Source: an uncultured Erwinia sp. (GTDB lineage: Bacteria; Pseudomonadota; Gammaproteobacteria; Enterobacterales; Enterobacteriaceae). From it: DNA of 64,000 bases. This document shows, piece after piece, positions 4,648-44,235 of this stretch (the first letter of the stretch is position 1; every line of letters starts with the position of its first letter). The notes under the pieces were generated by a model that was not told the origin of the DNA, made no database searches, and saw nothing but the letters and a program-made list of their open reading frames with translations. The position numbers were made by a program, and so were the translations under genes. The DNA lies in the NCBI GenBank assembly GCA_913775305.1, contig CAJYIY010000103.1:1-64000 (forward strand), read 5' to 3'.

Positions 4648-6453
4648 ATGTCGGAGAGAGAAACGCTGATAGCCAGAACTATCCTGCAGGGATTCGATGC
4701 ACAGTACGGCCGCTTCCTGGACATTACTGCCGGTGCCCAGCAGCGCTTTGAGCAGGCTGACTGGCAGGTGGTACAGCGGGCGATGAAAGCGCGTATCCAC
4801 CTGTACGATCACCACGTCGGGCTGGTTGTTGAACAGCTGCGCAGCATTACCGGTACGCAGTCAGAAGATCGTGACTTCCTGCAGCAGGTCAAAAATATCT
4901 ACACCGACCTGCTGCCGGACTATCCGCGCTTTGAAATCGCTGAAAGCTTTTTCAATTCCGTTTACTGCCGTCTGTTCAGCCATCAGTCGCTGACCCCGGA
5001 ACGACTGTTTATTTTCAGCTCCCAGCCGGAGCAGCGTTTTCGTATGATCCCGCGGCCACTCGCGCGGGAGTTTAGCGCGTCAGCGGGCTGGCGGCCGCTG
5101 TTAACTCGCCTGCTGCACGATCTGCCGCTGCGTCTGCCCTGGCAGGATCTGCCGCGGGATATCCAATTCATCATCAGCCACCTGCGGGAAAATTTCAGCG
5201 AAAGTGAGCTGCAGCAGGCAACGCTGCAGGTGGCTAACGAGCTGTTTTATCGTAACAAAGCCGCGTGGCTGGTGGCTAAACTACGTACGCCTTCAGGAGT
5301 CTGCGCATTCCTGATGCCAATCCACCGCAGTGACGCGGGTGAACTGTTTATCGACACCTGCCTGACCCGCAACCGTGAAGCCAGCATCGTTTTTGGCTTT
5401 GCCCGCTCTTACTTCATGGTGTATGCGCCGCTGCCCGCCGCGCTGGTGGAATGGCTGCGGGAGATCCTGCCGGGCAAAACCACCGCTGAACTATATATGG
5501 CGATTGGCTGCCAGAAGCATGGTAAAACGGAAAGCTACCGGGAATACCTCAGCCATATGGCCGCGACCCGCGAGCAGTTCGTTATTGCTCCCGGCGTTCC
5601 GGGGCTGGTGATGCTGGTATTTACCCTGCCGGGATTTGACAGGGTCTTTAAAGTGATTAAAGACACCTTCGCGCCGCAAAAAGAGGTCACACCGCAGCGG
5701 GTGCGCGAGTGCTATCAGCTGGTCAAGGAGCACGATCGCGTTGGCCGCATGGCCGACACGCAGGAATTTGAAAACTTTGCTATTGAACAGGGAAGACTCA
5801 GCCCGGACCTACTGGCCACGCTGTGGCGTGAGGTGCCGGAAAAACTCCAGCAGCAGGGCGAGATGCTCATCATTAATCATCTGTATATGGAACGTCGGAT
5901 GATGCCGCTCAACCTGTGGCTGGAACAGGCCGACGATCGGCAGCGACACGATGCGATTGAAGAGTACGGCAATGCGGTAAAACAGCTGGCGGCGGCCAAT
6001 ATTTTTCCCGGTGATATGCTGTATAAAAATTTCGGTGTGACCCGCCATGGAAGGGTGGTGTTTTACGACTACGATGAAATCAGCTACATGACTGAAGTAA
6101 ACTTCCGCGATATTCCGCCGCCGCGTTATCCGGAGGATGAACTGAGCCATGAACCGTGGTACAGCGTTGCACCGGAAGATGTCTTTCCGGAAGAGTTTCG
6201 TCACTACCTCTGTGCGGACCCGAAGATAGCGCGGCTGTTCGACGAAATGCACGGTGAACTGTTCCGCGCCGATTTTTGGCGCGGGTTACAGCAACAGATC
6301 CGCAACGGGCACATTGAAGATGTTTTTGCCTACCGTCGCCGACAGCGCTTTTGTCAGCGCTACGGTGACGGTCTGCCCGGTCTGGCGTGTCGACAATCAG
6401 GTGTAGAAGTAGCGCACCACGTGGAAAAATACCGGTGCGGCAAAGCAGAGTGA
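4648..6453 (+). CDS. aceK: isocitrate dehydrogenase kinase/phosphatase
   Basis: AceK phosphorylates and dephosphorylates isocitrate dehydrogenase (Icd), setting flux between the TCA cycle and the glyoxylate bypass. The protein has 601 residues, a little longer than E. coli AceK (578). It carries the ATP-site region [18 protein letters not shown] near residue 315 and the catalytic-type segments [18 protein letters not shown] and [18 protein letters not shown] near 450-480. The last 57 bases overlap, tail to tail, the CdsA-like gene on the other strand. The extra C-terminal residues after [10 protein letters not shown] look non-conserved. Confidence 0.95.
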
Positions 6454-7329
6454 ATCAATGCGGTCCATCATGCCGCCGTGCCCTTCAAGCATAGCACCGA
6501 AATCTTTCACCCCGCGATCGCGCTTGATAGCCGACATGCACAGGCCGCCAAGGAAGCCGAGCAGGGTGATAAGGAGTGAGATCAGGAACGCCTGCCAGGG
6601 AGCAAAAGGTGTTATCCACCACAGCCCCATGCCGACCAGGCTGGCGCTGAGGATCCCGCCAACAAAGCCCTCAACCGTTTTGTTTGGGCTAAGCTTCGGC
6701 ACAATCGGCCGCTTGCCCCAAAGTTTGCCGAAGACATACTGCAGGACATCGGAGATCTGCACCACAATCATCAGGAACAGCAGCAGCTTGATGTTCTGCT
6801 GCCCATAGCCGGGGATCGACAGCATCAGCAGCGCCGGTGCGTGGCTGATACAGTAAACGGCAATCATCATGCTCCACTGAATTTTGGCCGCACGCTCCAG
6901 GAAATGGCTGGTATCTCCCGCCAGGGCCAGCCGGGCAGGGATAAACAGCCAGGCGTACACCGGGATCAGGATGACAAACACGCCGTACCATTCGATGCCG
7001 ACCAGCAGGTACTGTAACGGCAGAATGATAAAGAAGCACCAGAACAGTGTCTCATGATCGCTCCTGCGCGTTGGCAACAGGGTGATGCACTCCCGCAGCG
7101 CATAGAACGACATCAGCATAAACAGCACTGTCGAACCTATTGGTCCGAGCGTCATCGCCAGCACCGTGATAATGCACATCACCCACCAGGCGCGAATGCG
7201 AGCGTTGAGGTTGGCGATGGTGTCGTTCTGCTTAAACTTCGCCAGTACGCCGCCGATAATGCTGGCCACCACCAGCAGGCCAAACAGGCCGCACAGCAGC
7301 CAGCTCAGTTCGGTATCCCAGATTTTCAT
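6397..7329 (-). CDS. CdsA-family phosphatidate cytidylyltransferase (YnbB-like)
   Basis: The 310-residue membrane protein has about eight hydrophobic segments. It ends with the CDP-diglyceride synthase signature: [20 protein letters not shown] followed by GMMDRID, including the paired acidic and histidine residues. Members use CTP and phosphatidic acid to make CDP-diacylglycerol. It resembles E. coli YnbB more than the housekeeping CdsA (family assignment by eye). Its start ATG overlaps the stop of the acyltransferase upstream (ATGA), so the two are co-translated. E. coli has no such genes between aceK and iclR, where it has arpA. Its physiological role here is unknown. Confidence 0.88.
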
Positions 7330-8009
7330 GGTGCAATCGCCTCCAGTGCGGCTTTGGTCCTTGCCAGAAAGGCCTGTTTGTCTTCTCCTTCGGCCACGCC
7401 CGGCTGCGGCGTACCAAAGGTGGCGCTACAGATAATCGGCACCACCAGCCGCGAGCCTTTCGGCAGCACCCGATTAAGATTGTCCAGCCATACCGGGACC
7501 AGTTCGACCTGCGGATAGGCTTTCGAGAGGTGATAAAGACCACTCTTAAAAGGGTTAAGCTGCTCCCCGCTACCGCGCGTACCTTCGGGAAACAGAATAA
7601 GCGAATGCTGGTTGTCCAGCGCCTGCTTCAATGGCAGCAGGACGTCTTTGTTCACTACCGCCCCGTTTGCGATCTGCTTTTCGGCGGGTTCAGCCTCATG
7701 CTGTCCGGTTGGGCGCCGCTCAACCAGCACTGCGCCGAAGATACGTAAAGCCAGATAGCGCTTCAGGCGTGAACCCAGCCAGTAGTCGGCAGCGGCGACC
7801 GGATGAACCTGTGTACGCATCTGCGGCGGCAGGCTGGACCAGATCACCAGTCCGTCGAGGTGGCTGCTGTGATTGGCATAGTAAATACGAATTTTTTCCG
7901 GCTCCGGCTCGCTTTGCCAGCGGGAGCGTATACCGGTCAGAAAACGGCAAACGGTGACCAGCAGTGCGCTGACCAGGCGGCGATCGGCAGACAGGCGTGG
8001 CTCAGACAT
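7326..8009 (-). CDS. PlsC-like 1-acylglycerol-3-phosphate acyltransferase family protein
   Basis: The protein has 227 residues. It shows the lysophospholipid acyltransferase motif H-x4-D in YANHSSHLDGLVIW near residue 46, and the block III motif LILFPEGTRGSGEQL near 140. Enzymes of this family make phosphatidic acid from lysophosphatidic acid, which the overlapping CdsA-like partner would use, so the pair could form a short phospholipid precursor route. It lies 153 bases downstream of iclR on the same strand and may have its own promoter. It is not the housekeeping plsC by context. Substrate is inferred from family only. Confidence 0.85.
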   Translation of the reverse strand: MSEPRLSADRRLVSALLVTVCRFLTGIRSRWQSEPEPEKIRIYYANHSSHLDGLVIWSSLPPQMRTQVHPVAAADYWLGSRLKRYLALRIFGAVLVERRPTGQHEAEPAEKQIANGAVVNKDVLLPLKQALDNQHSLILFPEGTRGSGEQLNPFKSGLYHLSKAYPQVELVPVWLDNLNRVLPKGSRLVVPIICSATFGTPQPGVAEGEDKQAFLARTKAALEAIAP

Positions 8010-9108: not shown

Positions 9109-9194
9109 CCAGCCATCGCTGTTACCTGCGTAAAAGTTGTGCCAGGATGACCAGCAGGCAGTGGAGCTTTTGGTGACGCGTAAGGGGCTGGGTG

Positions 9195-12100
9195 GTGAGC
9201 AACAGAGTTAAGGCGCTGCATCAGCAGCTGGCAAAACGCATTATGCTGCTGGACGGCGGTATGGGCACTATGATCCAGAGTTACCGTCTGGAAGAGAGCG
9301 ATTTCCGCGGTACGCGTTTTGCCGACTGGCCCTGCGATTTGAAAGGCAACAACGACCTGCTGGTACTGACCAGGCCCGAGGTGATTAGCGAGATCCACCA
9401 TGGTTATCTTGCTGCCGGTGCCGACATCCTTGAAACCAACACCTTTAACGCCACCACCATTGCCATGGCTGATTACCAGATGGCGTCGCTGTCGGCAGAA
9501 ATTAACCTGGTGGCAGCAAAGCTGGCACGCGCCTGTGCCGACGAGTGGACGGCAAAAACGCCGCATCGCCCGCGCTACGTTGCCGGCGTGCTGGGCCCGA
9601 CCAACCGTACCTGCTCGATCTCGCCGGACGTGAACGACCCGGCATTCCGTAACGTCACTTTCGATCAGCTGGTGGAAGCCTACCGCGAATCAACCCGTGC
9701 GCTGGTCGAGGGCGGTTGTGACATCATCATGATTGAAACGGTATTCGATACGCTGAACGCTAAGGCGGCTGTTTTTGCGGTGAGGGCCGAATTCGACGCG
9801 CTGGGCATTGCGCTGCCGATGATGATCTCCGGTACCATCACCGATGCCTCTGGCCGAACGCTGTCCGGACAAACGACCGAAGCTTTCTACAACTCCCTGC
9901 GCCATGCAGAGCCGCTCTCCTTCGGTCTGAACTGTGCGCTGGGACCGGACGAACTGCGCCAGTATATCGCTGAACTGTCGCGCATAGCTGAAGGCTACGT
10001 CACCGCACACCCTAACGCCGGGCTGCCCAACGCTTTTGGTGAATACGATCTGGATGCGCAGACCATGGCGGAACAGATTGGCGAGTGGGCGCAGGCCGGT
10101 TTACTCAACATAGTTGGCGGCTGTTGCGGCACCACTCCGGAACATATCGCAGCGATGGCGAAAGCGGTAGAGGGCGTACCCCCGCGCCCGCTGCCTGTGG
10201 TGGCGGTTGCCTGCCGCCTTTCCGGGTTGGAGCCGCTGAATATCAGTGGCGATACGCTGTTTGTTAACGTCGGGGAGCGTACCAACGTCACCGGCTCGGC
10301 GAAGTTTAAGCGGCTGATCAAAGAAGAGAAATATAACGAAGCGCTGGATGTTGCCCGCCAGCAGGTTGAAAGCGGCGCGCAGATTATCGACATCAATATG
10401 GATGAGGGAATGCTCGATGCTGAAGCAGCCATGGTGCGTTTCCTTAATCTGATCGCCGGTGAGCCGGATATTGCCCGCGTGCCGATTATGATCGACTCCT
10501 CAAAGTGGGAAGTGATCGAAAAAGGCCTCAAGTGCATTCAGGGCAAGGGGATCGTGAACTCTATTTCGATGAAGGAAGGCGTAGAGCCGTTTCTGCATCA
10601 CGCCCGGCTGGTACGTCGCTACGGTGCCGCGATGGTGGTGATGGCATTTGATGAAGTCGGCCAGGCCGACACTCGTCAGCGCAAAATCGACATCTGTCGC
10701 CGCGCCTATAAGCTACTGACCGAAGAAGTGGGCTTCCCGCCGGAAGATATCATCTTTGATCCGAACATCTTTGCCGTGGCCACCGGTATCGAAGAACATA
10801 ATCATTATGCGGTGGACTTTATCGGCGCCTGTGAGGACATCAAGCGTGAACTGCCGCATGCCATGATCTCTGGCGGCGTATCTAACGTGTCCTTTTCTTT
10901 TCGCGGTAACGACCCGGTACGCGAAGCCATTCACGCCGTGTTCCTTTATCACGCCATCCGTAACGGAATGGATATGGGCATCGTCAATGCCGGGCAGCTG
11001 GCGATTTATGACGATCTACCCGCCGACCTGCGCGAAGCGGTAGAAGATGTTATCCAGAACCGTCGCGACGACGGCACCGAACGGCTGCTGGCGCTGGCAG
11101 AAAAATATCGCGGCAGTAAAGGCGGCGACGACAACAAACAGCAGCAGGCCGAGTGGCGCAGCTGGGAAGTGGCTAAGCGTCTGGAATACTCGCTGGTGAA
11201 AGGCATCACCGAGTTTATTGAGGAAGACACCGAAGCCGCACGTCAGCTTTCTGCCCGGCCGATTGAGGTCATTGAAGGCCCGTTAATGGCCGGAATGAAT
11301 GTGGTCGGCGATCTGTTTGGCGAAGGCAAAATGTTTCTGCCTCAGGTGGTGAAATCCGCCCGCGTGATGAAGCAGGCAGTGGCTTATCTTGAACCTTATA
11401 TCGAAGCCAGCAAGGAGAAGGGCAGCACCAGCGGTAAAATCGTGCTGGCAACGGTGAAGGGCGACGTTCATGACATCGGTAAAAACATCGTTGGCGTGGT
11501 GTTACAGTGTAATAATTACGAAATTATCGATCTTGGCGTGATGGTGCCGAGTGACAAAATCCTCAAAACTGCCCGTGAGGCTAATGCCGATATTATTGGT
11601 CTGTCCGGGCTGATCACGCCCTCGCTGGACGAGATGGTTAACGTGGCAAAGGAGATGGAACGCCAGGGCTTTACCCTGCCGCTGCTTATCGGCGGGGCGA
11701 CCACCTCAAAGGCACACACGGCGGTAAAAATCGAGCCGCATTACAGCGGCCCGACGGTCTATGTGCAGAACGCCTCGCGCACCGTTGGCGTGGTGTCATC
11801 CCTGCTGTCGGCAGCACAGTACGATGATTTTGTTGCGCACATACGGAAAGAGTACGACACGGTGCGCATCCAGCACGCGCGTAAAAAACCGCGCACGCCG
11901 CCAGTCAGTCTGCAGGCAGCGCGCGATAACGCCTTCAGCTTCGATTGGGAAAATTACACACCACCGCCAGCGCACAGGATTGGTGTAAGCGAAGTGAGTG
12001 CTAACATCGAAACTTTGCGCAACTATATCGACTGGACACCGTTCTTTATGACCTGGTCACTGGCAGGGAAATATCCGCGCATTCTGGAAGATGAAGTGGT

Positions 12101-12878
12101 GGGCGAAGAGGCAAAACGTCTGTTTGCCGACGCCAATGCCATGCTCGATCGGCTCAGCGCCGATGGCACGCTTAATCCCGTTGGCGTGGTGGGGATTTTC
12201 CCCGCCAACCGCGTGGGGGACGACATTGAGATCTACCGCGACGAGTCACGAATCGAGGTATTGAAAGTAAGTCATCACTTACGTCAACAGACTGAGAAAC
12301 TGGAGTTTCCCAACTACAGCCTCGCTGATTATGTGGCGCCGAAGTCCAGCGGAAAAGCTGACTACCTTGGTGCGTTTGCCGTCACCGGGGGGCTGGAAGA
12401 AGATGCGCTTGCCGAGGCATTTGACGCCCGGCACGACGACTACAACAAAATTATGCTTAAAGCCCTAGCCGATCGCCTGGCCGAAGGCTTTGCCGAATAT
12501 CTGCATGAGCGGGTGCGTAAAGTGATCTGGGGCTTTGCCGCCACCGAGAACCTGAGTAATGAAGAGCTGATCCGTGAAAACTATCAGGGTATCCGCCCGG
12601 CACCGGGCTATCCGGCCTGTCCGGAACACAGTGAGAAAGCGACCATCTGGCAGTTGCTTGATGTAGAAACCCATACGGGTATGAAGCTGACCGAATCTTT
12701 TGCCATGTGGCCAGGCGCTTCAGTCTCCGGGTGGATCTTCAGCCACCCGGAGAGCAAATACTTCGCTGTCGCTCAGCTTCAGCACGATCAGATTGAGGAC
12801 TATGCTAAACGCAAAGGCATGACGGTCAGCGAAGCCGAGCGCTGGCTGGCACCGAATCTTGGCTATGACACGGATTAA
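9195..12878 (+). CDS. metH: cobalamin-dependent methionine synthase
   Basis: MetH moves a methyl group from methyltetrahydrofolate through cobalamin to homocysteine, making methionine. From the GTG at 9195 it has 1227 residues, exactly the E. coli length; an adjacent GTG at 9192 is possible. Domains in order: homocysteine-binding with zinc cysteines (FGLNCALG near 247, [10 protein letters not shown] near 310), folate-binding (about 355-620), the B12 cap and B12 domain with [13 protein letters not shown] (cobalt-ligand His near 759), and the C-terminal reactivation domain with [12 protein letters not shown]. It ends 3 bases from a convergent fimbrial adhesin gene. Its last bases were copied in the duplication described below. 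Confidence 0.98.
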
Positions 12879-12881
12879 CGG

Positions 12882-13907
12882 CTACTTATAACTGACGGTA
12901 AAATTGGCTTTTGCATTGGCGCTGCCCGGCTGCGGCGAGTTGTTGGTTTTGATGTAGCGCGCGTTGAACTGCAGAACCGTCTCTCCGGGCGTAATGGCGC
13001 CAGCCGGGTTTACCACGCCGAGCGGAAAGGCCGTCACGCCATCTTCTTTCAGAATCTGAATGCCAACGCCGGTGGCTTTTGAGGTGCTGTCCAGCCCCAG
13101 AATACCGTTCGGGCCATCGGCAATCGTCGAACCGCCGGTGGGAGTAAAGGTAACATTGGCAATATTGCTCATGGCACTTCCGGTGGTGCAGTTAGTCAAC
13201 GGGATCTGAAAGCGCTGAGAAAAGCTGGTGGGGTTCAGGTCACTGATGGAGTAATTGCCCATTAAAACTGAAATTGTAGAGCCAGGGCTGGCAATCGAGC
13301 AGTTGTCCGCGGTGACCGTAATACTGAAATCAGAACTCAGGAATGTGAATTGTCGGGTGGATAGCGATGACGTGCTTTTGACCACATGGACACCGGGTTC
13401 AATCTCTCCCGTCTTCACTAAAATTACGCCGATGGTGGGTGTGTAATTGTACTTAGATGCAGGAATAGACTGGGAAATCGGGAAGAACGCTGAATTGGTC
13501 AGGTCGCCGAACTTTTTTATTCTTGTCATCACGCCGATTCCGGGAATGTTAGTCGGAAATACTTTACCGGCAGAGCCAGGATAGCCCTGGGCGACAACAT
13601 CCACTGGCGCTGCGGCGGCGGTGTTGTTTCCTACCAAAATGGCATTGCCATAACAATTTAAATAAGCATATCCACTGTAGTTGATTAACAGTATTTTCTC
13701 TTCACCAATGATACTGCCTATGGCAGCATCCCGACCTACAGTAATCCCCCCGAAAGTGCCGCTGACAGGAACGGTGTCGTCATAGGCGGTACTCCAGCCA
13801 TTAAGCCACAGGCAGGTGTTTTTGGGTTGAGTTAATGACGATGCCGCAAAAGTCTGTTTTGCCAAAAGAAGACACAGTAGCGTCATCAGGTATGAAATTT
13901 TTTTCAT
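12882..13907 (-). CDS. fimbrial tip adhesin, copy A
   Basis: This is a secreted two-domain fimbrial adhesin of 341 residues. A signal peptide (MKKISYLMTLLCLLLAKQTFA) is followed by a probable receptor-binding domain (about 22-185) and a C-terminal pilin domain with a cysteine pair (DNCSIAS, LTNCTTG) and the donor-strand type end ANFTVSYK. A GTG at 13952 is in frame, but the ATG at 13907 matches the paralogue and begins a proper signal peptide. It is the last gene of the fimbrial operon. It is a paralogue of the neighbouring copy B, nearly identical in the pilin domain and clearly different in the N-terminal domain. The receptor is unknown. Confidence 0.88.
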   Translation of the reverse strand: MKKISYLMTLLCLLLAKQTFAASSLTQPKNTCLWLNGWSTAYDDTVPVSGTFGGITVGRDAAIGSIIGEEKILLINYSGYAYLNCYGNAILVGNNTAAAAPVDVVAQGYPGSAGKVFPTNIPGIGVMTRIKKFGDLTNSAFFPISQSIPASKYNYTPTIGVILVKTGEIEPGVHVVKSTSSLSTRQFTFLSSDFSITVTADNCSIASPGSTISVLMGNYSISDLNPTSFSQRFQIPLTNCTTGSAMSNIANVTFTPTGGSTIADGPNGILGLDSTSKATGVGIQILKEDGVTAFPLGVVNPAGAITPGETVLQFNARYIKTNNSPQPGSANAKANFTVSYK

Positions 13908-14024
13908 CTTAAAATATTGCCTTGTTAATGAGCTACGGGGCTGAAATGACACTTACTTCTGGCTGGTCAAAAATATCAATTTCACGCTTAATCCATTCTC
14001 TTTGAGAATCTATTTAAAATCCGT

Positions 14025-14190
14025 TCAGTGCTGACAGACAGTTTTACCAGATTTAAACCATCCTGCTGCTGCAAACCATTGGCTTTGATGTCATTACCGC
14101 ACTGTTGATTTGCGTTATTATCCTGGCTTACATATAACCAATATATCGGTTGTTTTTTTCTTCAGATTCATTAGCACTTACTTATCCAGT
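14025..14190 (-). pseudogene. remnant of the usher gene 3' end
   Basis: The segment aligns base for base with the last 55 or so codons of the intact usher gene (15433-15598), including the region encoding QQDGLSLAKAVCRH. It has no start and many substitutions. Most changes read G or C in the intact gene and A or T here, as expected for unselected DNA in enterobacteria. It marks the right end of duplication copy A. The other bases of the 337-base gap between the adhesins (13953-14024) match the spacer upstream of copy B. Confidence 0.9.
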
Positions 14191-14223
14191 TTATCACTCT
14201 ATAAAAATTTAAATTTTTCCTCA

Positions 14224-14286
14224 GGCATAGCGGTCAGCGAAGTCGGGCGCTGGCTGGCACCGACTCCTGGCTATGACGCGGATTAA
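14224..14286 (+). pseudogene. remnant of the metH 3' end
   Basis: About 63 bases match the last codons of metH (12816-12878), including CGCTGGCTGGCACCGA, GGCTATGAC and the TAA stop, with scattered substitutions. It has no upstream metH sequence. This scar shows that the duplication extended past the adhesin into the neighbouring housekeeping gene. Confidence 0.93.
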
Positions 14287-14289
14287 CGA

Positions 14290-15315
14290 CTACTTATAAC
14301 TGACGGTAAAATCGGCTTTTGCATTGGCGCTGCCCGGCTGCGGCGAGTTGTTGGTTCTGATGTAGCGCGCGTTGAACTGCAGAAGCGTCTCTCCGGGCGT
14401 GATGGCACCAGCCGGGGTTGCCACACCGAGCGGAAAGGCCGTCACGCCATCTTCTTTCAAAATCTGAATGCCAACGCCCGTGGCTTTAGAGGTGCTGTCC
14501 AGCCCCAGAATACCGTTCGGGCCATCATTAATCGTCGAACCACCCGTCGGGGTAAAGGTAACATTGGCAATATTGCTCATGGCACTCCCGGTGGTGCAGT
14601 TAGTCAACGGGATCTGAAAGCGTTGAGCCAAACTGGCGGGGTTCAGGCTACGGAGTGAGTAATTGCCCATTGGAACTGAAATTGTAGAGCCAGGACTGGC
14701 AATCGAGCAGTTGTCCTCGGTGACCGTAATACTGAAATCAGAACTCAGGAATGTGAATTGTCGAGTGGATAGCGATGACGTGCTTTTGACCACATGGACG
14801 CCGGGTTCGATATCTCCGGTCTTCACTAAAATCACGCTGATGGTGGGGGTGTAATAGAACCTGCCCGAAGGAACAGGTTGGGAAACCGGAAAGAACTCTG
14901 AATCTTTTAGATCGCCGAATTCTTTTATTCTTGTCATCACGCCGATTCCGGGAATGTTAGTCGGAAATACTTTACCGGCAGAGTCAGGATAGCCCTGCGC
15001 GATAACATCCGCTGGCGCTGCGGCGAAGGTGTTTTTACCTACTACGATGGCTTTATTAAGACAATTCAAAGCAGCATATCCACTTTGGTTGATAAACAAT
15101 ATTTTTTCATCGCCAATAATACTGCCTACGGCAGCATCGCGCTCTACAGTAATCCCTCCGAAAGTACCGCTAACAAGAATGTTGTCGTCAAATTTACTAC
15201 CCCAGGAGCTGTACCACAAACATGTATCAACGGGTTGAATTATTGACGATGCTGCAAAAGTCTGTTTTGCAAAAAGAAGGCATAGTAGTGTCATCAGACA
15301 TGACATTTTTTTCAT
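14290..15315 (-). CDS. fimbrial tip adhesin, copy B
   Basis: This is a 341-residue paralogue of adhesin A, starting at MKKMSCLMTLLCLLFAKQTFA (signal peptide). An in-frame TTG at 15336 is less likely as a start. The C-terminal pilin domain has the same cysteines and ends ADFTVSYK. By hand count, roughly 45 substitutions fall in the first 165 residues and about 14 in the last 175. Both copies keep the N-terminal domain cysteines (TCLW, LNC). It directly follows the usher gene and is the promoter-proximal adhesin. With two intact genes, the fimbria could carry alternative tips. Confidence 0.88.
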   Translation of the reverse strand: MKKMSCLMTLLCLLFAKQTFAASSIIQPVDTCLWYSSWGSKFDDNILVSGTFGGITVERDAAVGSIIGDEKILFINQSGYAALNCLNKAIVVGKNTFAAAPADVIAQGYPDSAGKVFPTNIPGIGVMTRIKEFGDLKDSEFFPVSQPVPSGRFYYTPTISVILVKTGDIEPGVHVVKSTSSLSTRQFTFLSSDFSITVTEDNCSIASPGSTISVPMGNYSLRSLNPASLAQRFQIPLTNCTTGSAMSNIANVTFTPTGGSTINDGPNGILGLDSTSKATGVGIQILKEDGVTAFPLGVATPAGAITPGETLLQFNARYIRTNNSPQPGSANAKADFTVSYK

Positions 15316-15432
15316 CTTAATATACTGCCTTATCAATGAGCTATGGGGCTGATATGAGACTTATTTCTGGCTGATCACAGATATCGGTCTCATACTCAGC
15401 CCATCCTCTTTCAGAAGCTAATCCATATCTGT

Positions 15433-17904
15433 TCAGTGTCGACAGACAGCTTTTGCCAGACTTAAACCATCCTGCTGCGGCAAACCATTGGCTTTAATGT
15501 CGGCCCGGCACTGCTGGTCTGCGTTACTACCCCAGCTGACATTGACTGACATGTCGGTTATTTCTTCCTGCAAATTCATCAGCGCCTGGCCAGCCTGACC
15601 TACCAGCGTCAGCTCTTTTCCCTGACGATCGCGCACCGATGCGCCGAATGGCACGTAGCGCCCGTTGGGTTGGGTCAGCTGCAGCAGCAAACGCAGATTT
15701 TTACTGGCACTGTAGTGAATTGCCACTACCGATCCCTGACGTGGATAGACCTGCTGCACCCGGCCGTCGATATCGACATTATTGCTGACATTACGCACAT
15801 CCAGCAGGATACGGTTAGCGCGGTAAGGCCGCAGATAGGGGACCAGGGCGTAGCCCCGCTCGTTGGTCACGGAGGTCGGCGCATTTTGCAGTGATACGCC
15901 CGGCGTGTTATCAACCTTTACCAGGCCAACGGTATCACCCAGCTGCTGGCTCAGCTCTACGCCACCCGAATGCATCAACAGCGCACCGGAGACGCTGCCG
16001 TTGGCACTGTGGTAGTTTTCCCCTGCGCTAATCCCCCCGTTGAGCTGTGCCCACGGGGTCAGATAGCCAGCCGATGCGGCATAACCTGTGCTGTTGGCCT
16101 GTGATTGATTGCGCACGTCAAGATTGTAGTTGAACTGGTTTTTCTCACCCGCTGTGCCGCTCACTCCCAGGTTTTCACTGTATTTGCGATCCTGTCCGCG
16201 GTTCACCGTGCTGGAGACTGTTGCATTACCCAGCGGCATGGACAGCATCACGGAGATGTCCGTGCCGGAGGTGGAGCCATAGCCGCTATTTTCAGTGGTG
16301 CGGCTGGCATAGATACCCAGGTTGACCAGCGAAATCGTTGTGTTGTAGCCCAGCTGCAGTTGGCGAGTTTTACGTGAAGAGTGCCACCAGGTTTGCTGGT
16401 TCGCCGTCAGATAAATTGAGCTACTGGCACCGATATTCTGCGTTAACGTTGCTTCGATACGGTTGCGTCGGCTCTCCGGTTGGTAGTTAAAGCGATCGAT
16501 AAAGCTGCGTTCATCCATCGCTTCAGAAAATGTGCGGTAACCTTCCGTCGAGTAGCGATAACCGGCAAAGCGCAGGTTTGTACCGCTGTTGAAAGCTTTA
16601 CCGTAACGCAGGCTGTAACTTTGTCCACCCTCCTGGTGATCGCGATATTTCGTCATGGATTGTGAGATATCTAAAGCCATTGCGCCGAAGCTGCCAAGGC
16701 TTTTGCCAATCCCTACCAGCCCTGCCTGATAGATATCACTGATGGTGAACCCGGACGATAGCGTGTAGTCATGAGAAAGGCCCAATGCTCCCGATGCCTG
16801 CACAAATCGCGGGTGAATCGAGTAAGAGGATGACGTTGATTTATATTCACCAAGAGCAACATTATAGCGCCAGGTTCCACGGCGTAGCAGGTTACCGAGG
16901 GTGGCGAACGGCTGGGTGAAATGTCTCACTGTGCCATCGGCTTCGGTAATGGTCACGTCAAGATCGCCGTTACCGGATGCGGTATTGAGGTCACGAATTT
17001 CAAATGGGCCGGGTGGAACAAAGGTGGTATACAGCGAATAGCCGTGCTGGCTGATTTCCACTTTAGCCTGACTGTTGGCCACGCCGCGTATCACCGGGGA
17101 GTATCCCTGCAGGGAGTCAGGTAACATTTGCACCACCGAACCGGCCTGAATACCACGAAAAGGTACGCTGTCCAGCACGTCGCCACCGGTAAACAGCTCT
17201 CCCGCCTGTACGTTGCCAAGAGTGCCGGGTAAATCTTTCTCGACATAGGTGTTATACCGTTGCCAGGTTTCTCCCTTGCGCCATGAGGCAGAAGAGCGCA
17301 GGCGGAAGCCGAGCAGATTGAGCCCCCCCTGCAAATAAACATTGGCTGAGTGAGTGTTGCGACCCTGGTTTTCGCTGCTTGAGGCAGAAGCATTATAGTT
17401 CAACAGCAGGGCCGGGATACCGTCATCCCACTTCTTTGGGTCGATATACCCCTGTGCTGATTGATCCAGACTTTCCTGGGGGATAAGAATGCGTAACGCC
17501 AGTTTTTTACTGTCAAAATAGGCGCTGGCATGCTCCACTAATTCACTGACGTCGACACATGTATCACCGGATGTGCCCTTCAATATACTTTCGCGTACCC
17601 CTGCATTCTGGAGTAGCGAGACGGGAACACAGGGAACCAGCTTATCGCCGTGCATTTTGAATTCGACAGTATTCTGACCAAAATCCTGATTATTAATAAA
17701 AAGGGAAACAGGATAACTTCCGGGCAGCAGATTTTTCTGATTTAAAACGGAATTAATATCGACATTATTGCCATCCGCTGCGGATGGCACATTCATGAAG
17801 TCCTGATCAAACTTGATATCATCGTCAGCTGCAGCGTTGCGTGCACTCAGGACAACGCAAACCGTAAGCGACAGTAAAGAATAACGATAGTTTGGTAACA
17901 TCAT
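15433..17904 (-). CDS. fimbrial outer-membrane usher protein
   Basis: This 823-residue usher is the outer-membrane pore and assembly platform for a chaperone-usher pilus. A signal peptide ending near NAAA is followed by the N-terminal chaperone-binding domain, a long beta-barrel region with the usher motif SVPFRGIQAGSVVQMLPDSL near 255, the plug domain (PVIRGVANSQAKVEISQHGY) and C-terminal domains ending in a cysteine pair (QQCRADIKANG, KAVCRH). The first ATG of ATG-ATG follows GGGGA. It lies 15 bases after the chaperone gene. Its 3' end is the source of the remnant between the adhesins. Confidence 0.95.
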   Translation of the reverse strand: MMLPNYRYSLLSLTVCVVLSARNAAADDDIKFDQDFMNVPSAADGNNVDINSVLNQKNLLPGSYPVSLFINNQDFGQNTVEFKMHGDKLVPCVPVSLLQNAGVRESILKGTSGDTCVDVSELVEHASAYFDSKKLALRILIPQESLDQSAQGYIDPKKWDDGIPALLLNYNASASSSENQGRNTHSANVYLQGGLNLLGFRLRSSASWRKGETWQRYNTYVEKDLPGTLGNVQAGELFTGGDVLDSVPFRGIQAGSVVQMLPDSLQGYSPVIRGVANSQAKVEISQHGYSLYTTFVPPGPFEIRDLNTASGNGDLDVTITEADGTVRHFTQPFATLGNLLRRGTWRYNVALGEYKSTSSSYSIHPRFVQASGALGLSHDYTLSSGFTISDIYQAGLVGIGKSLGSFGAMALDISQSMTKYRDHQEGGQSYSLRYGKAFNSGTNLRFAGYRYSTEGYRTFSEAMDERSFIDRFNYQPESRRNRIEATLTQNIGASSSIYLTANQQTWWHSSRKTRQLQLGYNTTISLVNLGIYASRTTENSGYGSTSGTDISVMLSMPLGNATVSSTVNRGQDRKYSENLGVSGTAGEKNQFNYNLDVRNQSQANSTGYAASAGYLTPWAQLNGGISAGENYHSANGSVSGALLMHSGGVELSQQLGDTVGLVKVDNTPGVSLQNAPTSVTNERGYALVPYLRPYRANRILLDVRNVSNNVDIDGRVQQVYPRQGSVVAIHYSASKNLRLLLQLTQPNGRYVPFGASVRDRQGKELTLVGQAGQALMNLQEEITDMSVNVSWGSNADQQCRADIKANGLPQQDGLSLAKAVCRH

Positions 17905-17919
17905 GATTATTATCCCCGA

Positions 17920-18651
17920 TTAATTTACGAGGGAGTCGGGCTGTTGTTGAATGCCACCGTAATCGTTAATAGTGGAAAAGCTCACTTTACCCTGCTGTAC
18001 AGCGGCATTGCCTGACAGCAGGTAATCGCTGTGGCTAAATGGAGCCAGCATTGCAGGGTCTTTGACGACCAGTTTGTTTCCGGCAGAGATAACGCTGACC
18101 TCGGAAAATGAGATGTGCCACGGGGTATTATTAGTGGCGCGCAGCCATGATTTCCCACCCTGATTGATACGCTGCCAGCTAATTTTTTTGACGGCATCCT
18201 CAGGCGTGCCGACCAGCCCCGCTGGACGATAGAACAGCTTAATGCGAGAGCGGATCGCAATCGTGAGTTTGTTATCACTCTGACCTTTATTCAGGGAAGG
18301 GATTTCCTGCGCATTGAAATAAAATACGGACTCACGATCTTTAGGCAGACCGTTATCCGGCAGCTTAATGATTTTTACAATCTGATCTTCAGAGGGTGCA
18401 AGTCGGAAAAGTGCAGGCGTGGCAATGAATGGCACCTTCTCATCGCTACGATCGCTGGCACCATTAACCCAGACCTGAACGGCATAATTATCCTTGCTCA
18501 CATTGCTTAACGTACTGGTGGCGCTTTTATCATTCTCGCTATAAATAATGCGCGTTTTATTAATCATGACCCCAGCAAAGGCCGTCGATGAGGTAAGCGC
18601 AGTTATCACAAGGATGGAAGTGTATCGAGCTAAATATCTATGTAGAAACAT
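17920..18651 (-). CDS. periplasmic fimbrial chaperone
   Basis: This 243-residue PapD-family chaperone binds pilin subunits in the periplasm by donor-strand complementation and delivers them to the usher. It has a signal peptide ending near STAFA, the edge strand with alternating hydrophobics, and the family signature RESVFYFNAQEIPSL near residue 120. The conserved Arg (INKTRIIY) and Lys (RSRIKLFYRP) that anchor the subunit C-terminus are present. It is the second gene of the operon, after a hairpin that should reduce read-through from the subunit gene. Confidence 0.94.
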   Translation of the reverse strand: MFLHRYLARYTSILVITALTSSTAFAGVMINKTRIIYSENDKSATSTLSNVSKDNYAVQVWVNGASDRSDEKVPFIATPALFRLAPSEDQIVKIIKLPDNGLPKDRESVFYFNAQEIPSLNKGQSDNKLTIAIRSRIKLFYRPAGLVGTPEDAVKKISWQRINQGGKSWLRATNNTPWHISFSEVSVISAGNKLVVKDPAMLAPFSHSDYLLSGNAAVQQGKVSFSTINDYGGIQQQPDSLVN

Positions 18652-18712: not shown

Positions 18713-18741
18713 AATGCCTGAACAGCAATTATTCAGGCATT
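18713..18741 (-). terminator. attenuating hairpin after the major fimbrial subunit
   Basis: A perfect 10 bp inverted repeat (AATGCCTGAA / TTCAGGCATT) with a 9-base loop lies 14 bases after the subunit stop codon on the minus strand. It is followed by a T-rich stretch (ATTATTTCT). Partial termination here would give many subunits per usher and chaperone, as in other fimbrial operons. Confidence 0.75.
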
Positions 18742-18754
18742 TTAAGCTAGCAGG

Positions 18755-19288
18755 TTATTTGTAGTTAATAACGAAACCAGCTTTTGCATCCGCTTTGCCT
18801 GCTTCAGCGGCACCTAACGCAATATAATCTGCAGTAAAGGTGATTGGTTTGGTCAGGTCATAGCTGTTGGCAGAGTCTGTACCGATCGGCACCACATTGT
18901 TTTGCTGATCGAGAATACGTACGGCTACATTTTTTGCGCCGCCGGTCACGCCCAGATACTGCTGCTTATCACCCGCGGTTCCGCTCATAGAAATGAAACG
19001 CACGGTACCGGTTTTACCAGTCAGGTCGCATTTGCCGCCTGATTCTGACGCGTCACTCACCGCCAGAGTAAAGGTTGCACCACCGGCATTATCGTTTGCC
19101 TTTGCCAGGCTGCTGGCCTGAACTGAGCCCAAATCGATGGTGCTGTTGGCGTTACCGTCATTGACCGCAACAGAGCAGGTGTTGTCATTAATTTCGCCAG
19201 TAAAGTTTATCGTTCCGTCGATGGCCATCGCCTGCATGGAAAACATGCCGGCGGAAGCCACAAGTAATGCGGGCAGTGTGAATTTCAT
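18755..19288 (-). CDS. major fimbrial subunit (pilin)
   Basis: This 177-residue type 1-like pilin starts at MKFTLPALLVASAGMFSMQA (signal peptide, cleavage near AMA-IDG). The in-frame upstream codons (TTG 19303, ATG 19297) overlap the ribosome binding site GGGA. The mature protein has the pilin cysteine pair (DNTCSVAV, GGKCDLTG), a penultimate tyrosine (FVINYK) and the small-residue-rich composition of fimbrial rods. It is the first gene of the operon, facing away from yjbB. The specific fimbrial class cannot be named from sequence reading alone. Confidence 0.93.
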   Translation of the reverse strand: MKFTLPALLVASAGMFSMQAMAIDGTINFTGEINDNTCSVAVNDGNANSTIDLGSVQASSLAKANDNAGGATFTLAVSDASESGGKCDLTGKTGTVRFISMSGTAGDKQQYLGVTGGAKNVAVRILDQQNNVVPIGTDSANSYDLTKPITFTADYIALGAAEAGKADAKAGFVINYK

Positions 19289-19797
19289 GATAATCATTCC
19301 CAATATTTATGAATAAATCTGACTTTATGACTGCGTTTAATTTAGCTTTCTAGTCAATAGACTTGTGCGGAAAAGATTCTAATTTATTTCTTTTTTTTTG
19401 AGAACAGTTAATTAATTGATTAGAATCAATACATATAAAAATGTCGCATCGATTTATAATTTATATTTTATTGTCGCGTGTGTAATTTTTTTATTTTTAT
19501 TGCGACATTATGTTCTGTGTATTTACCGCATAGTGATATTTAATGTCAGCATATAGCAGCTGGGTAAAAAAAAGACTACATTACAATCCGTTAAGCAATC
19601 CCTTACCTTAACTAAGGGATTATCCTATTCTCTGTCAGCCATAGAAATGTGTAAATTGATCCTGAAAATTCCAGCTAAATGGAAAGTATACTGTTGTTAT
19701 AGAACCCAGTCCTCAGCTTTTCTGGATTCAACTAAAATGACCTGTAAGCTGCACAAAGCATGTTGTGCGTTTTATTTCAGCCAGGAGAAATTTATCG
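19289..19797. other. AT-rich control region between the fimbrial operon and yjbB
   Basis: About 500 bases without a gene, strongly AT-rich over 19310-19560. It must hold divergent promoters for the fimbrial operon and yjbB. Two palindromes stand out: ATTGATTAGAATCAAT (19415-19430), upstream of the pilin gene, and AATCCCTTA (19597-19605) with TAAGGGATT (19613-19621), nearer yjbB. No invertible-element repeats or recombinase gene were seen. Confidence 0.5.
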
Positions 19798-21423
19798 GTG
19801 TTAACCTTGCTCAATCTTCTCTCAGCCGTGGCGCTGCTGGTATGGGGAACCCATATTGTGCGTACCGGTATTATGCGCGTTTACGGTGCCGATTTGCGGC
19901 GGGTGCTCAGCCGCAGCGTGGAAAAAAAACCGATGGCGTTCCTCGCCGGGATCGGTGTGACCGCGTTGGTACAAAGCAGTAACGCCACCACGCTGCTGGT
20001 GACTTCGTTTGTTGCCCAGGAACTGGTCGGGCTGACGCCTGCACTGGTGGTTATTCTCGGCGCAGATGTCGGTACGGCATTGATGGCGCGGATCCTGACC
20101 TTCGATCTGTCGTGGCTGTCGCCGCTGTTTATCTTCTTCGGGGTGGTGTTTTTTCTCGGCCGTAAACAGACCCGCGCCGGGCAGCTCGGACGAGCCAGCA
20201 TCGGCCTGGGGCTGATTCTGCTGGCGCTGCAGCTGATTGTTGCCGCCGCCGCACCGATCACCCAGGCGTCCGGCGTGAAAGTTCTGTTCTCTTCGCTGAC
20301 CGGCGATGTGATGCTGGATGCACTCATCGGTGCGGTGTTTGCCATTATCAGCTACTCCAGCCTGGCGGCGGTGCTGATCACCGCCACGCTGACCGCCACC
20401 GGGGTGATCTCGTTTAAGGTAGCCCTGTGTCTGGTCATTGGAGCTAACCTCGGCAGCGGACTGCTGGCGATGCTGAACAACAGCACTTCAAACGCGGCCG
20501 GGAAACGCGTTGCCCTGGGAAGCCTGCTGTTTAAATTTATTGGTTCGCTGATAGTGTTGCCGTTTGTTGACCTGCTGGCCGGGTGGCTGGAGAAGCTGCC
20601 GGTCAGTGATGAAGAGCTGGTGATATTCTTCCACGTTTTCTACAACCTGATCCGCTGCCTGATCATGGTGCCGTTTGCCGAACCGATGGCCGCACTGTGT
20701 AAGCGTCTGATCCGCGAAGAGCCGGAAACCGACCTGCGTCTGAAGCCAAAGCACCTTGATACCAGTTCGCTGGATACCCCGGCGCTGGCGCTGGCCAACG
20801 CCGCCCGCGAAACCCTGCGCATGGGCGATGTGCTGGAGCAGATGCTGGCAACGTTCAGAAAGGTGGTGCACGGTGAATTACGTGAGGACCGGGAGATCCG
20901 CAAACTGGATGATGATGTCGATGTGCTGTACACGGCAATCAAGCTGTACCTGGCGCAGATGCCGAAGGAAGATCTGCCGGAAGAGGATTCGCGACGCTGG
21001 GCAGAAATCATCGAGATGGCACTTAACCTGGAGCAGTCCGGGGATATTCTTGAACGTATGAGCGGGGACGTCGCGGACAAATCGCTGACCGCACGGCGGG
21101 CGTTCTCGGTCGAGGGCATGCAGGAGCTGGATGCGCAGCTTGAGCTGTTAACCAGCAATCTGCGCCTCAGTCTGTCGGTATTCCTCTCCCGCGATTTGGC
21201 CAGTGCGAAACGCCTGCGCCGTTCCAAACATCGGTTCCGCATTACTAATCGTCGTTATTCACACGCTCACGTTGACCGTCTGCATCAGCATAACGTTCAG
21301 AGCATCGAAACCAGTTCGCTGCACCTCGGGCTGCTGGGCGACATGAAACGCCTGAACTCGCTGTTTTGTGCCGTGGCCTACAGCGTGCTGGAACAGGCGG
21401 ATGATGATAAAGACGAGGAGTAA
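19798..21423 (+). CDS. yjbB: Na/Pi-cotransporter II family protein YjbB
   Basis: YjbB is an inner-membrane phosphate transporter of the Na/Pi-cotransporter type; E. coli YjbB has been linked to phosphate export. The 541-residue protein has two repeats with QSSNATT-like motifs (VTALVQSSNATTLLVTSF near 60; ISYSSLAAVLITATLTATG near 190) and a C-terminal PhoU-like helical domain (about 330-541). The GTG at 19798 follows AGGAGA by 9 bases and matches the E. coli N-terminus (LTLLNLLSAVALL). An in-frame GTG at 19765 lies upstream of that site and is not the start. In E. coli it follows metH; here the fimbrial operon intervenes. Confidence 0.94.
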   Translation: MLTLLNLLSAVALLVWGTHIVRTGIMRVYGADLRRVLSRSVEKKPMAFLAGIGVTALVQSSNATTLLVTSFVAQELVGLTPALVVILGADVGTALMARILTFDLSWLSPLFIFFGVVFFLGRKQTRAGQLGRASIGLGLILLALQLIVAAAAPITQASGVKVLFSSLTGDVMLDALIGAVFAIISYSSLAAVLITATLTATGVISFKVALCLVIGANLGSGLLAMLNNSTSNAAGKRVALGSLLFKFIGSLIVLPFVDLLAGWLEKLPVSDEELVIFFHVFYNLIRCLIMVPFAEPMAALCKRLIREEPETDLRLKPKHLDTSSLDTPALALANAARETLRMGDVLEQMLATFRKVVHGELREDREIRKLDDDVDVLYTAIKLYLAQMPKEDLPEEDSRRWAEIIEMALNLEQSGDILERMSGDVADKSLTARRAFSVEGMQELDAQLELLTSNLRLSLSVFLSRDLASAKRLRRSKHRFRITNRRYSHAHVDRLHQHNVQSIETSSLHLGLLGDMKRLNSLFCAVAYSVLEQADDDKDEE

Positions 21424-21845: not shown

Positions 21846-21942
21846 GCATTTTCAGCAGAGCCCTGCTCCAGGTTGAAAAGGCACGACATTGCTCACATTG
21901 CTTCCAGTGTTTCTTAGCCAGCTCGGGTGCTGGCTTTTTTTT
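21846..21942 (+). ncRNA. ryhB: RyhB iron-responsive small RNA
   Basis: The segment CACGACATTGCTCACATTGC plus TTCCAGTGTTTCTTAGCCAG is nearly identical to the conserved seed core and 3' part of E. coli RyhB. It ends in the intrinsic terminator GCCAGC-TCGG-GTGCTGGC followed by eight or more T. Only the 5' stem region differs. RyhB pairs with mRNAs for iron-rich proteins, with Hfq, when iron is scarce. The start is estimated from the -10 box and could shift by a few bases. The position beside yhhY and yhhW agrees with E. coli; yhhX is absent. Confidence 0.92.
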
Positions 21943-43919: not shown

Positions 43920-44011
43920 GACTATGACTACCTCGTGTCAGGTTTTATCTTTCAGCCTTGGCACAAGGAAAGAGCAGAAACGGGTCAGACGTAGAAGGGA
44001 TAACTACGAGT

Positions 44012-44201
44012 CACCCAGAAGCGCTCCACCTTGCGGCACGTTCGACTGCGAACGTTCCAGGTGACAACTCAGAGGATTCAGCCCCTGCAGTCGATACGCC
44101 CCACTCCGCGTGGTTAATACCTCGGCGTCGCTCCCCCTGATGTGTCATCAACGGATACGGATCCTCAAACACACTGCCTGGGCGACGCGCCTCTTCTGGC
44201 T
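44012..44201 (-). ncRNA. lysine riboswitch in the lysC leader
   Basis: On the minus strand the leader begins GCCAGAAGAGGCGCGTCGCC and contains GGGGCTGAATCCTCTGAG and AACGTTCGCAGTCGAACGT. It closes with GCGCTTCTGGGTGA, so CCAGAAG pairs with CTTCTGG as helix P1. These segments match the E. coli lysC riboswitch core closely. About 92 bases separate it from the start codon, including TTGTGCCAAGGCTGAAAG, also as in E. coli. Lysine binding should shut off lysC. Confidence 0.93.
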
Positions 44202-44235
44202 TGCGCGCACATGCACGCGTTAATTCAGGCCAGTA

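Follow-up and report, generated by a model that had tools for sequence, protein, structure and literature searches.

Among chaperone-usher fimbriae, type 3 fimbriae follow a five-gene mrkABCDF layout in which mrkF lies after the adhesin gene, and F17-like fimbriae have the order fimbrin-chaperone-usher-adhesin and an F17G-type lectin domain. The F17-like genes are presented as a four-gene cluster in the portion of the literature used here. Two predicted tip-adhesin genes have also been described in tandem within one chaperone-usher cluster, ste of Salmonella, and in the excerpts considered the authors read this tandem as suggestive of gene duplication and note that ste of several strains has a single, likely recombinant gene (PMC3373541). 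A limited literature search returned no report of flanking-gene scars at tandem adhesins.

Here we analyzed a fimbrial operon with two adhesin genes in an uncultured Erwinia sp. (GCA_913775305.1, contig CAJYIY010000103.1, positions 1 to 64,000; this stretch of 64,000 nucleotides is referred to as the window). The operon lies on the minus strand between metH and yjbB and was found by Pfam analysis to include genes for a major subunit, a chaperone, an usher and two adhesins. The features of the locus are as follows.

9192..12878, plus strand: metH, an open reading frame whose end matches metH-annotated records of a plasmid collection and 25 congeners
12882..13907, minus strand: adhesin 1, 341 aa (PF00419 7.1e-17, PF22003 1.6e-6)
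13908..14024, minus strand: usher-adhesin intergenic copy upstream of adhesin 1, matching copy 2 at offset 1408
14025..14175, minus strand: usher 3'-end scar, with indels and stops and no coding constraint in its decay
14176..14222, no strand: junction of 47 bp, 23% GC
14224..14286, plus strand: metH 3'-end scar of 63 bp with the stop codon included, differing from live metH at 7 positions
14290..15315, minus strand: adhesin 2, 341 aa (PF00419 1.4e-16, PF22003 3e-6)
15433..17904, minus strand: usher (PF00577, PF13954, PF13953)
17920..18651, minus strand: periplasmic chaperone (PF00345, PF02753)
18755..19303, minus strand: major fimbrial subunit (PF00419 5.1e-15)
19765-21423, plus strand: presumably yjbB, judging by the usual gene order

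Genes for a PapD-like chaperone, an usher and a major pilin occur together, all three with Pfam matches above the cut-offs, and both adhesins, which are about double the pilin in size, have an N-terminal receptor domain and a C-terminal pilin domain (PF22003 and PF00419). Adhesin 1 was found to have a signal-peptide-like start, an MrkD-like receptor domain and a pilin domain. Longer forms of the adhesins are present in the list of open reading frames; the starts used here were set by alignment of the two adhesins to each other and by the signal-peptide-like N terminus. Assembly of pili with the adhesin at the tip is predicted for this class of operon. The two adhesins are 82% identical in protein sequence over a gapless alignment, and the adhesin 1 stop is separated from the metH stop by 3 nt. 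No terminator-like site was detected at 13907-14290 on the minus strand. Weak terminator-like sites were found on this strand inside both adhesin genes (13884-13871 and 15087-15067), with a total of 12 such sites in the region compared to a shuffle mean of 7.9 (sd 3.3). A terminator-like minus-strand stem was also noted at 18713-18741, between the fimbrin and chaperone genes, a position that would suit higher expression of the major subunit. Elsewhere in the window, a RyhB sRNA was located at 21877-21942, just downstream of yjbB, and a lysine riboswitch at 44011-44203.

The two adhesin genes were found to be the product of a tandem duplication, as shown by the repeat and its scars. By local self-alignment, 12815-14175 (copy 1) pairs with 14223-15583 (copy 2) in direct orientation at an offset of 1408, in the following blocks.

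12815-13797: offset 1408, 983 bp, 88.3% identity
13798-13803: offset 1410, 6 bp, 3 of 6 alike
13806-14041: offset 1408, 80.1% identity
14042-14133: offset 1409, 81.5% identity
14135-14175: offset 1408, 73.2% identity

The indels between the copies are a compensated 2-base pair near 13798-13806 and single-base events at 14041/15450 and at 14134. Thus, the exact 1408-base offset of the original prediction holds for most of the repeat but not at these small indels, where blocks align at 1410 and 1409. The left end of copy 1 is formed by the last 63-64 bases of metH and the right end of copy 2 by the last 151 bp of the usher gene, such that a direct repeat carries parts of both neighbour genes at its inner joint. 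Upstream of adhesin 1, 13902-14024 (123 bp) differs from copy 2 at 27 positions. Assembly of one stretch twice was ruled out, since the adhesin copies differ at 132 of 1023 coding positions. A search of the whole source genome placed the segment 12600-15900 at one location only. Self-alignment and scar comparisons thus agree with the earlier proposal of a tandem duplication that took the ends of metH and the usher gene along, with metH and usher similarity at the inner boundaries far above that of shuffled sequence.

The metH tail between the adhesins was recovered at 14224-14286, the same 63 bases that had been predicted, with a local score of 91 compared to a best of 27 among 300 shuffles. 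It differs from the live metH tail of the window at 7 of 63 bases, all replacements, whereas the tails of the 25 congeners differ from it at 10-19 bases and that of Pantoea sp. 1.19 at 12; the nearest of the 27 metH tails is the window's own. At two codons, the scar encodes the residue found in 26 of 26 comparison tails (V and, at the last-but-one codon before the stop, A) and the live metH of the window is the odd one (A and T); therefore, at these codons the relic preserves an older state and it is the live gene (12816-12878) that changed. At four other codons only the scar differs, the live metH and all 26 tails having the same residue, and the remaining one of the 7 differences falls at a variable site.

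The usher tail gave a local score of 140 compared to a best of 28 among 300 shuffles. Over 133 aligned bp (14042-14133 and 14135-14175), 28 differences were counted and were distributed as 8, 9 and 11 over the usher codon positions, as expected without coding constraint. Two single-base indels are present in this short scar, and stops occur in all three frames read. The metH and usher tails are thus decaying relics. An usher scar of about 165 bases at 14025-14190 had been proposed; the start near 14025 was confirmed, but homology ends near 14175. The 47 bp that follow (14176-14222) showed no similarity above shuffles to the usher, to metH or to the rest of the window, and differ in composition from the usher stretch at the same offset (23% vs 62% GC). 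A 30-base core of this junction was found in the source genome only at its own single occurrence when up to 3 mismatches were allowed. The junction is not explained by a clean one-step duplication.

Divergence between the adhesins was next considered (dN 0.103, dS 0.278, ratio 0.37). Purifying selection has acted on the pair as a whole. The frames of both adhesins are open over 341 codons, compared to the indels of the usher scar, which together with the ratio suggests that both genes have been kept, although a pairwise dN/dS cannot prove constraint on each copy. Synonymous divergence is uneven along the pair, with dS ranging from 0.07 in the last sliding window to 0.79 at codons 26-75. By tests that were picked after this profile was seen, dS was higher in the receptor part (codons 23-188; 0.385) than in the pilin part (0.163; Fisher p 0.004-0.008 depending on rounding), third-position differences were clustered (runs test p 0.0036) and, when sites taken as unselected were pooled, the usher side was more diverged than the metH side (p 0.005); the difference in divergence between the metH and usher scars alone was not significant (p 0.11). 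The receptor domains also differ more in protein sequence than the pilin domains, which is largely explained by this uneven synonymous divergence. Positive selection on the receptor domain was not supported, as dN/dS was 0.42 for this domain and 0.30 for the pilin domain. The likeliest reading of this uneven profile is that, after the duplication, the pilin half underwent gene conversion or a receptor half was imported. With respect to age, dS between the window and G008, the nearest of six relatives compared, was 0.61 for metH and 0.57 for yjbB. The metH value exceeds the mean dS of the adhesin pair, and the duplication is therefore probably younger than the split from this relative; dating by the mean is unsafe, since codons 26-75 (dS 0.79) exceed the metH value, and no single date can be given safely.

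We also searched related genomes for the state before duplication. A genus sample of 37 genomes (including the window's own) was used, in which a metH tail was obtained from 25 of the 36 congeners. In the 11 others, a query with the C-terminal 392 aa of metH found nothing at E up to 1e-40, which may point to repeated loss of metH within the genus. Matches to the window's fimbrial proteins were absent within 1.5 kb of metH in all 25 congeners (tblastn, E up to 1e-4) and absent from stretches of about 10 kb by metH in 16 congeners (tblastn, E up to 1e-6), this set consisting of the 14 without yjbB within 1.5 kb plus 2 others. In 11 of the 25, metH and yjbB are no more than 1.5 kb apart. On visual inspection, 11 of the 16 longer stretches contain open reading frames that resemble an ABC-transporter operon, in many cases accompanied by a GntR-type regulator; Pfam agreed for the five proteins tested from two congeners and returned nothing for one large open reading frame from each of three others. 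The best-scoring congener usher among the 37 genomes was only 37% identical. Thus, strains with one adhesin copy and no scars, which the original prediction proposed to look for at this interval, were not found in these 25 congeners, nor was a single-copy relative in the same gene order found among any of the genomes searched. Further upstream, two genes at 6397-8009, which we take to be CdsA-like and PlsC-like genes between aceK and iclR, align in G008 and G021 and not in G003, G304 or G004; this comparison had no G015 data upstream of metH.

In wider searches, the adhesin protein was compared to 196 relatives, 392 family genomes, 2 genomes of the Pantoea sp. 1.19 genus and 394 order genomes, and an adhesin alignment (A1) to 369 class genomes; there is overlap between these sets, and those for family, order and class each sample a larger group. 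With an E cut-off of 1e-20 (1e-15 for the Pantoea sp. 1.19 genus), matches were restricted to the window's genome and Pantoea sp. 1.19 (G304, locus L030). At 1e-10, 17 of the 196 relatives matched, namely the window's own genome and 16 others with best E of 1e-15 to 1e-10, mostly to the pilin part. A scan of genome contigs with six peptide patterns returned Pantoea sp. 1.19 (64%) and a Pseudomonas (29%), 90 records of the plasmid collection matched at less than 60% identity, and a search with the usher among 147 relatives of G304 (E up to 1e-180) returned G304 only (58%).

Among the genomes searched, Pantoea sp. 1.19 is thus the only one outside the genus with close relatives of these fimbrial genes. 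Its gene order is metH, an orphan adhesin, yjbB and then an usher operon beyond, with usher, chaperone and fimbrin 58%, 59% and 57% identical to those of the window. The orphan adhesin is intact, is 66% identical to adhesin 1 and ends 3 nt from the metH stop. By contrast, the operon adhesin gene (L030 5489-6534) is split over two frames, which could be a sequencing error. No remnants of usher, chaperone or fimbrin genes were detected in the 816 bp that separate yjbB from the orphan adhesin, and in the other genome of this genus (G104) metH and yjbB lie about 100 bp apart, with no fimbrial match in 8 kb. The 3-nt abutment common to the window and Pantoea sp. 1.19 suggests that the neighbourhood of adhesin and metH is old; its absence from the sister genomes would then reflect either repeated loss or an old transfer. 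When metH and yjbB are compared along their length, G008 is mostly the closest to the window, and Pantoea sp. 1.19, at about the same distance as the congener G015, is one of the most divergent; metH thus gives no support for recent recombination with the Pantoea lineage. The ancestral order usher-adhesin-metH of the original prediction follows from the window itself, but gains no independent confirmation from Pantoea sp. 1.19, with its usher operon beyond yjbB.

We consider it very probable that a stretch from the end of metH through the adhesin to the end of the usher gene was duplicated in tandem in this lineage, leaving the two tails as relics and one operon that would specify two tips. 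The same arrangement may have been reached by another route, in which a larger tandem duplication (e.g., one that took in the entire operon together with all or the 3' part of metH) was followed by a deletion that began within one usher copy, ended in one metH copy and left only the two tails. This route, which concerns how the duplication came about and not the duplication itself, would yield exactly the gene order seen, and an AT-rich junction of 47 bp would suit a repaired deletion and a filled-in duplication joint equally well; it is a possible but rather doubtful alternative, as two events are needed and no further remnant was found, with 12600-15900 at one place only. Since a one-step duplication of 1.4 kb and a larger duplication with deletion leave the same scars, the 47 bp are unexplained and divergence is uneven, the claim that the locus gives the order of events was not supported.

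Fimbrial operons are often exchanged between species, and the second adhesin or its receptor half might have come from another strain or species by recombination at the locus. Import of at least a receptor half would fit the uneven synonymous divergence. An imported origin is nonetheless improbable, as the metH scar has all but one of the 21 third-position bases of the window's metH, is closer to this gene than to any of the 26 other tails, and a donor with a close adhesin was not found in the genomes searched. That the adhesins arrived separately, with the scraps being chance matches or functional sequence such as a terminator, is barely credible. Pantoea sp. 1.19 does have a pair of adhesin genes near metH, which are only 34-47% alike in the two pieces that were compared; against this, both scars of the window score far above shuffles, one continuous alignment runs through the adhesin and both scraps, and the metH scar has no terminator-like site inside it.

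Under the favoured reading of tandem duplication, the starting point would have been a four-gene chaperone-usher operon (fimbrin, chaperone, usher and tip adhesin) between metH and yjbB, with the adhesin end-to-end with metH. The stretch from the last 20 metH codons through the adhesin into the usher 3' end would then have been duplicated in tandem. Since neither breakpoint fell within the adhesin, the copy kept its own upstream stretch, presumably with a ribosome binding site, and metH and the usher lost nothing; both genes are whole, and each left a tail only. The new copy may thus have been translatable from the operon transcript at once. Both adhesins are most likely carried on this transcript and would compete for the same usher. 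Since a pilus of the chaperone-usher kind has one tip, two adhesins and one usher would give a mixed population in which a single cell bears pili with either of the two tips. Later gene conversion may have homogenised the pilin halves, or one receptor half may have been imported, as the uneven synonymous divergence suggests. A more speculative extension, to which we lend only tentative weight, is that conversion keeps the pilin halves similar enough for both to be served by one usher and chaperone, with the receptor halves diverging towards different ligands, such that one operon would offer two interchangeable tips with the metH and usher relics as a duplication clock.

Compared to type 3 fimbriae of Klebsiella, the N-terminal parts of both adhesins score marginally above the Pfam cut-off for the MrkD receptor domain (MrkDrd, PF22003; 28.4 and 27.5 bits vs a cut-off of 27). 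Residues 50-155 weakly match PDB chain 3u4k_A, 'Fimbria adhesin protein' (E 0.006), which we take to be the MrkD domain. The gene layout differs from that of type 3 fimbriae, as no fifth gene follows the adhesin in the window and the end of adhesin 1 is separated by 3 nt from that of metH. By contrast, the F17-like order is matched (19303 to 14290, minus strand) with an extra adhesin added, yet an F17G-type lectin was not found, MrkDrd being the sole N-terminal Pfam match in the window adhesins at E up to 0.001. The orphan adhesin of Pantoea sp. 1.19 resembles adhesin 1 in its convergent abutment on metH, its 3-nt gap and its 66% identity, but differs in that one adhesin only is present at metH and the usher operon, with its own split adhesin gene, lies beyond yjbB. 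The window is also like Salmonella ste in its tandem tip-adhesin genes within one chaperone-usher cluster; ste belongs to another cluster and genus, flanking-gene scars are unmentioned in the excerpts considered, and the likeness is one of gene arrangement as described (PMC3373541). Tandem tip adhesins are thus already described, and the gain here is a worked example, not a new principle. As such, the adhesin pair is a clear example, still legible in the sequence, of the way in which a second pilus-tip adhesin arises, through a duplication with breakpoints that spare both neighbours. Its relics offer a neutral standard by which the copy and later gene conversion can be gauged, and the scraps of neighbour genes between the adhesins make this duplication unusually easy to read.
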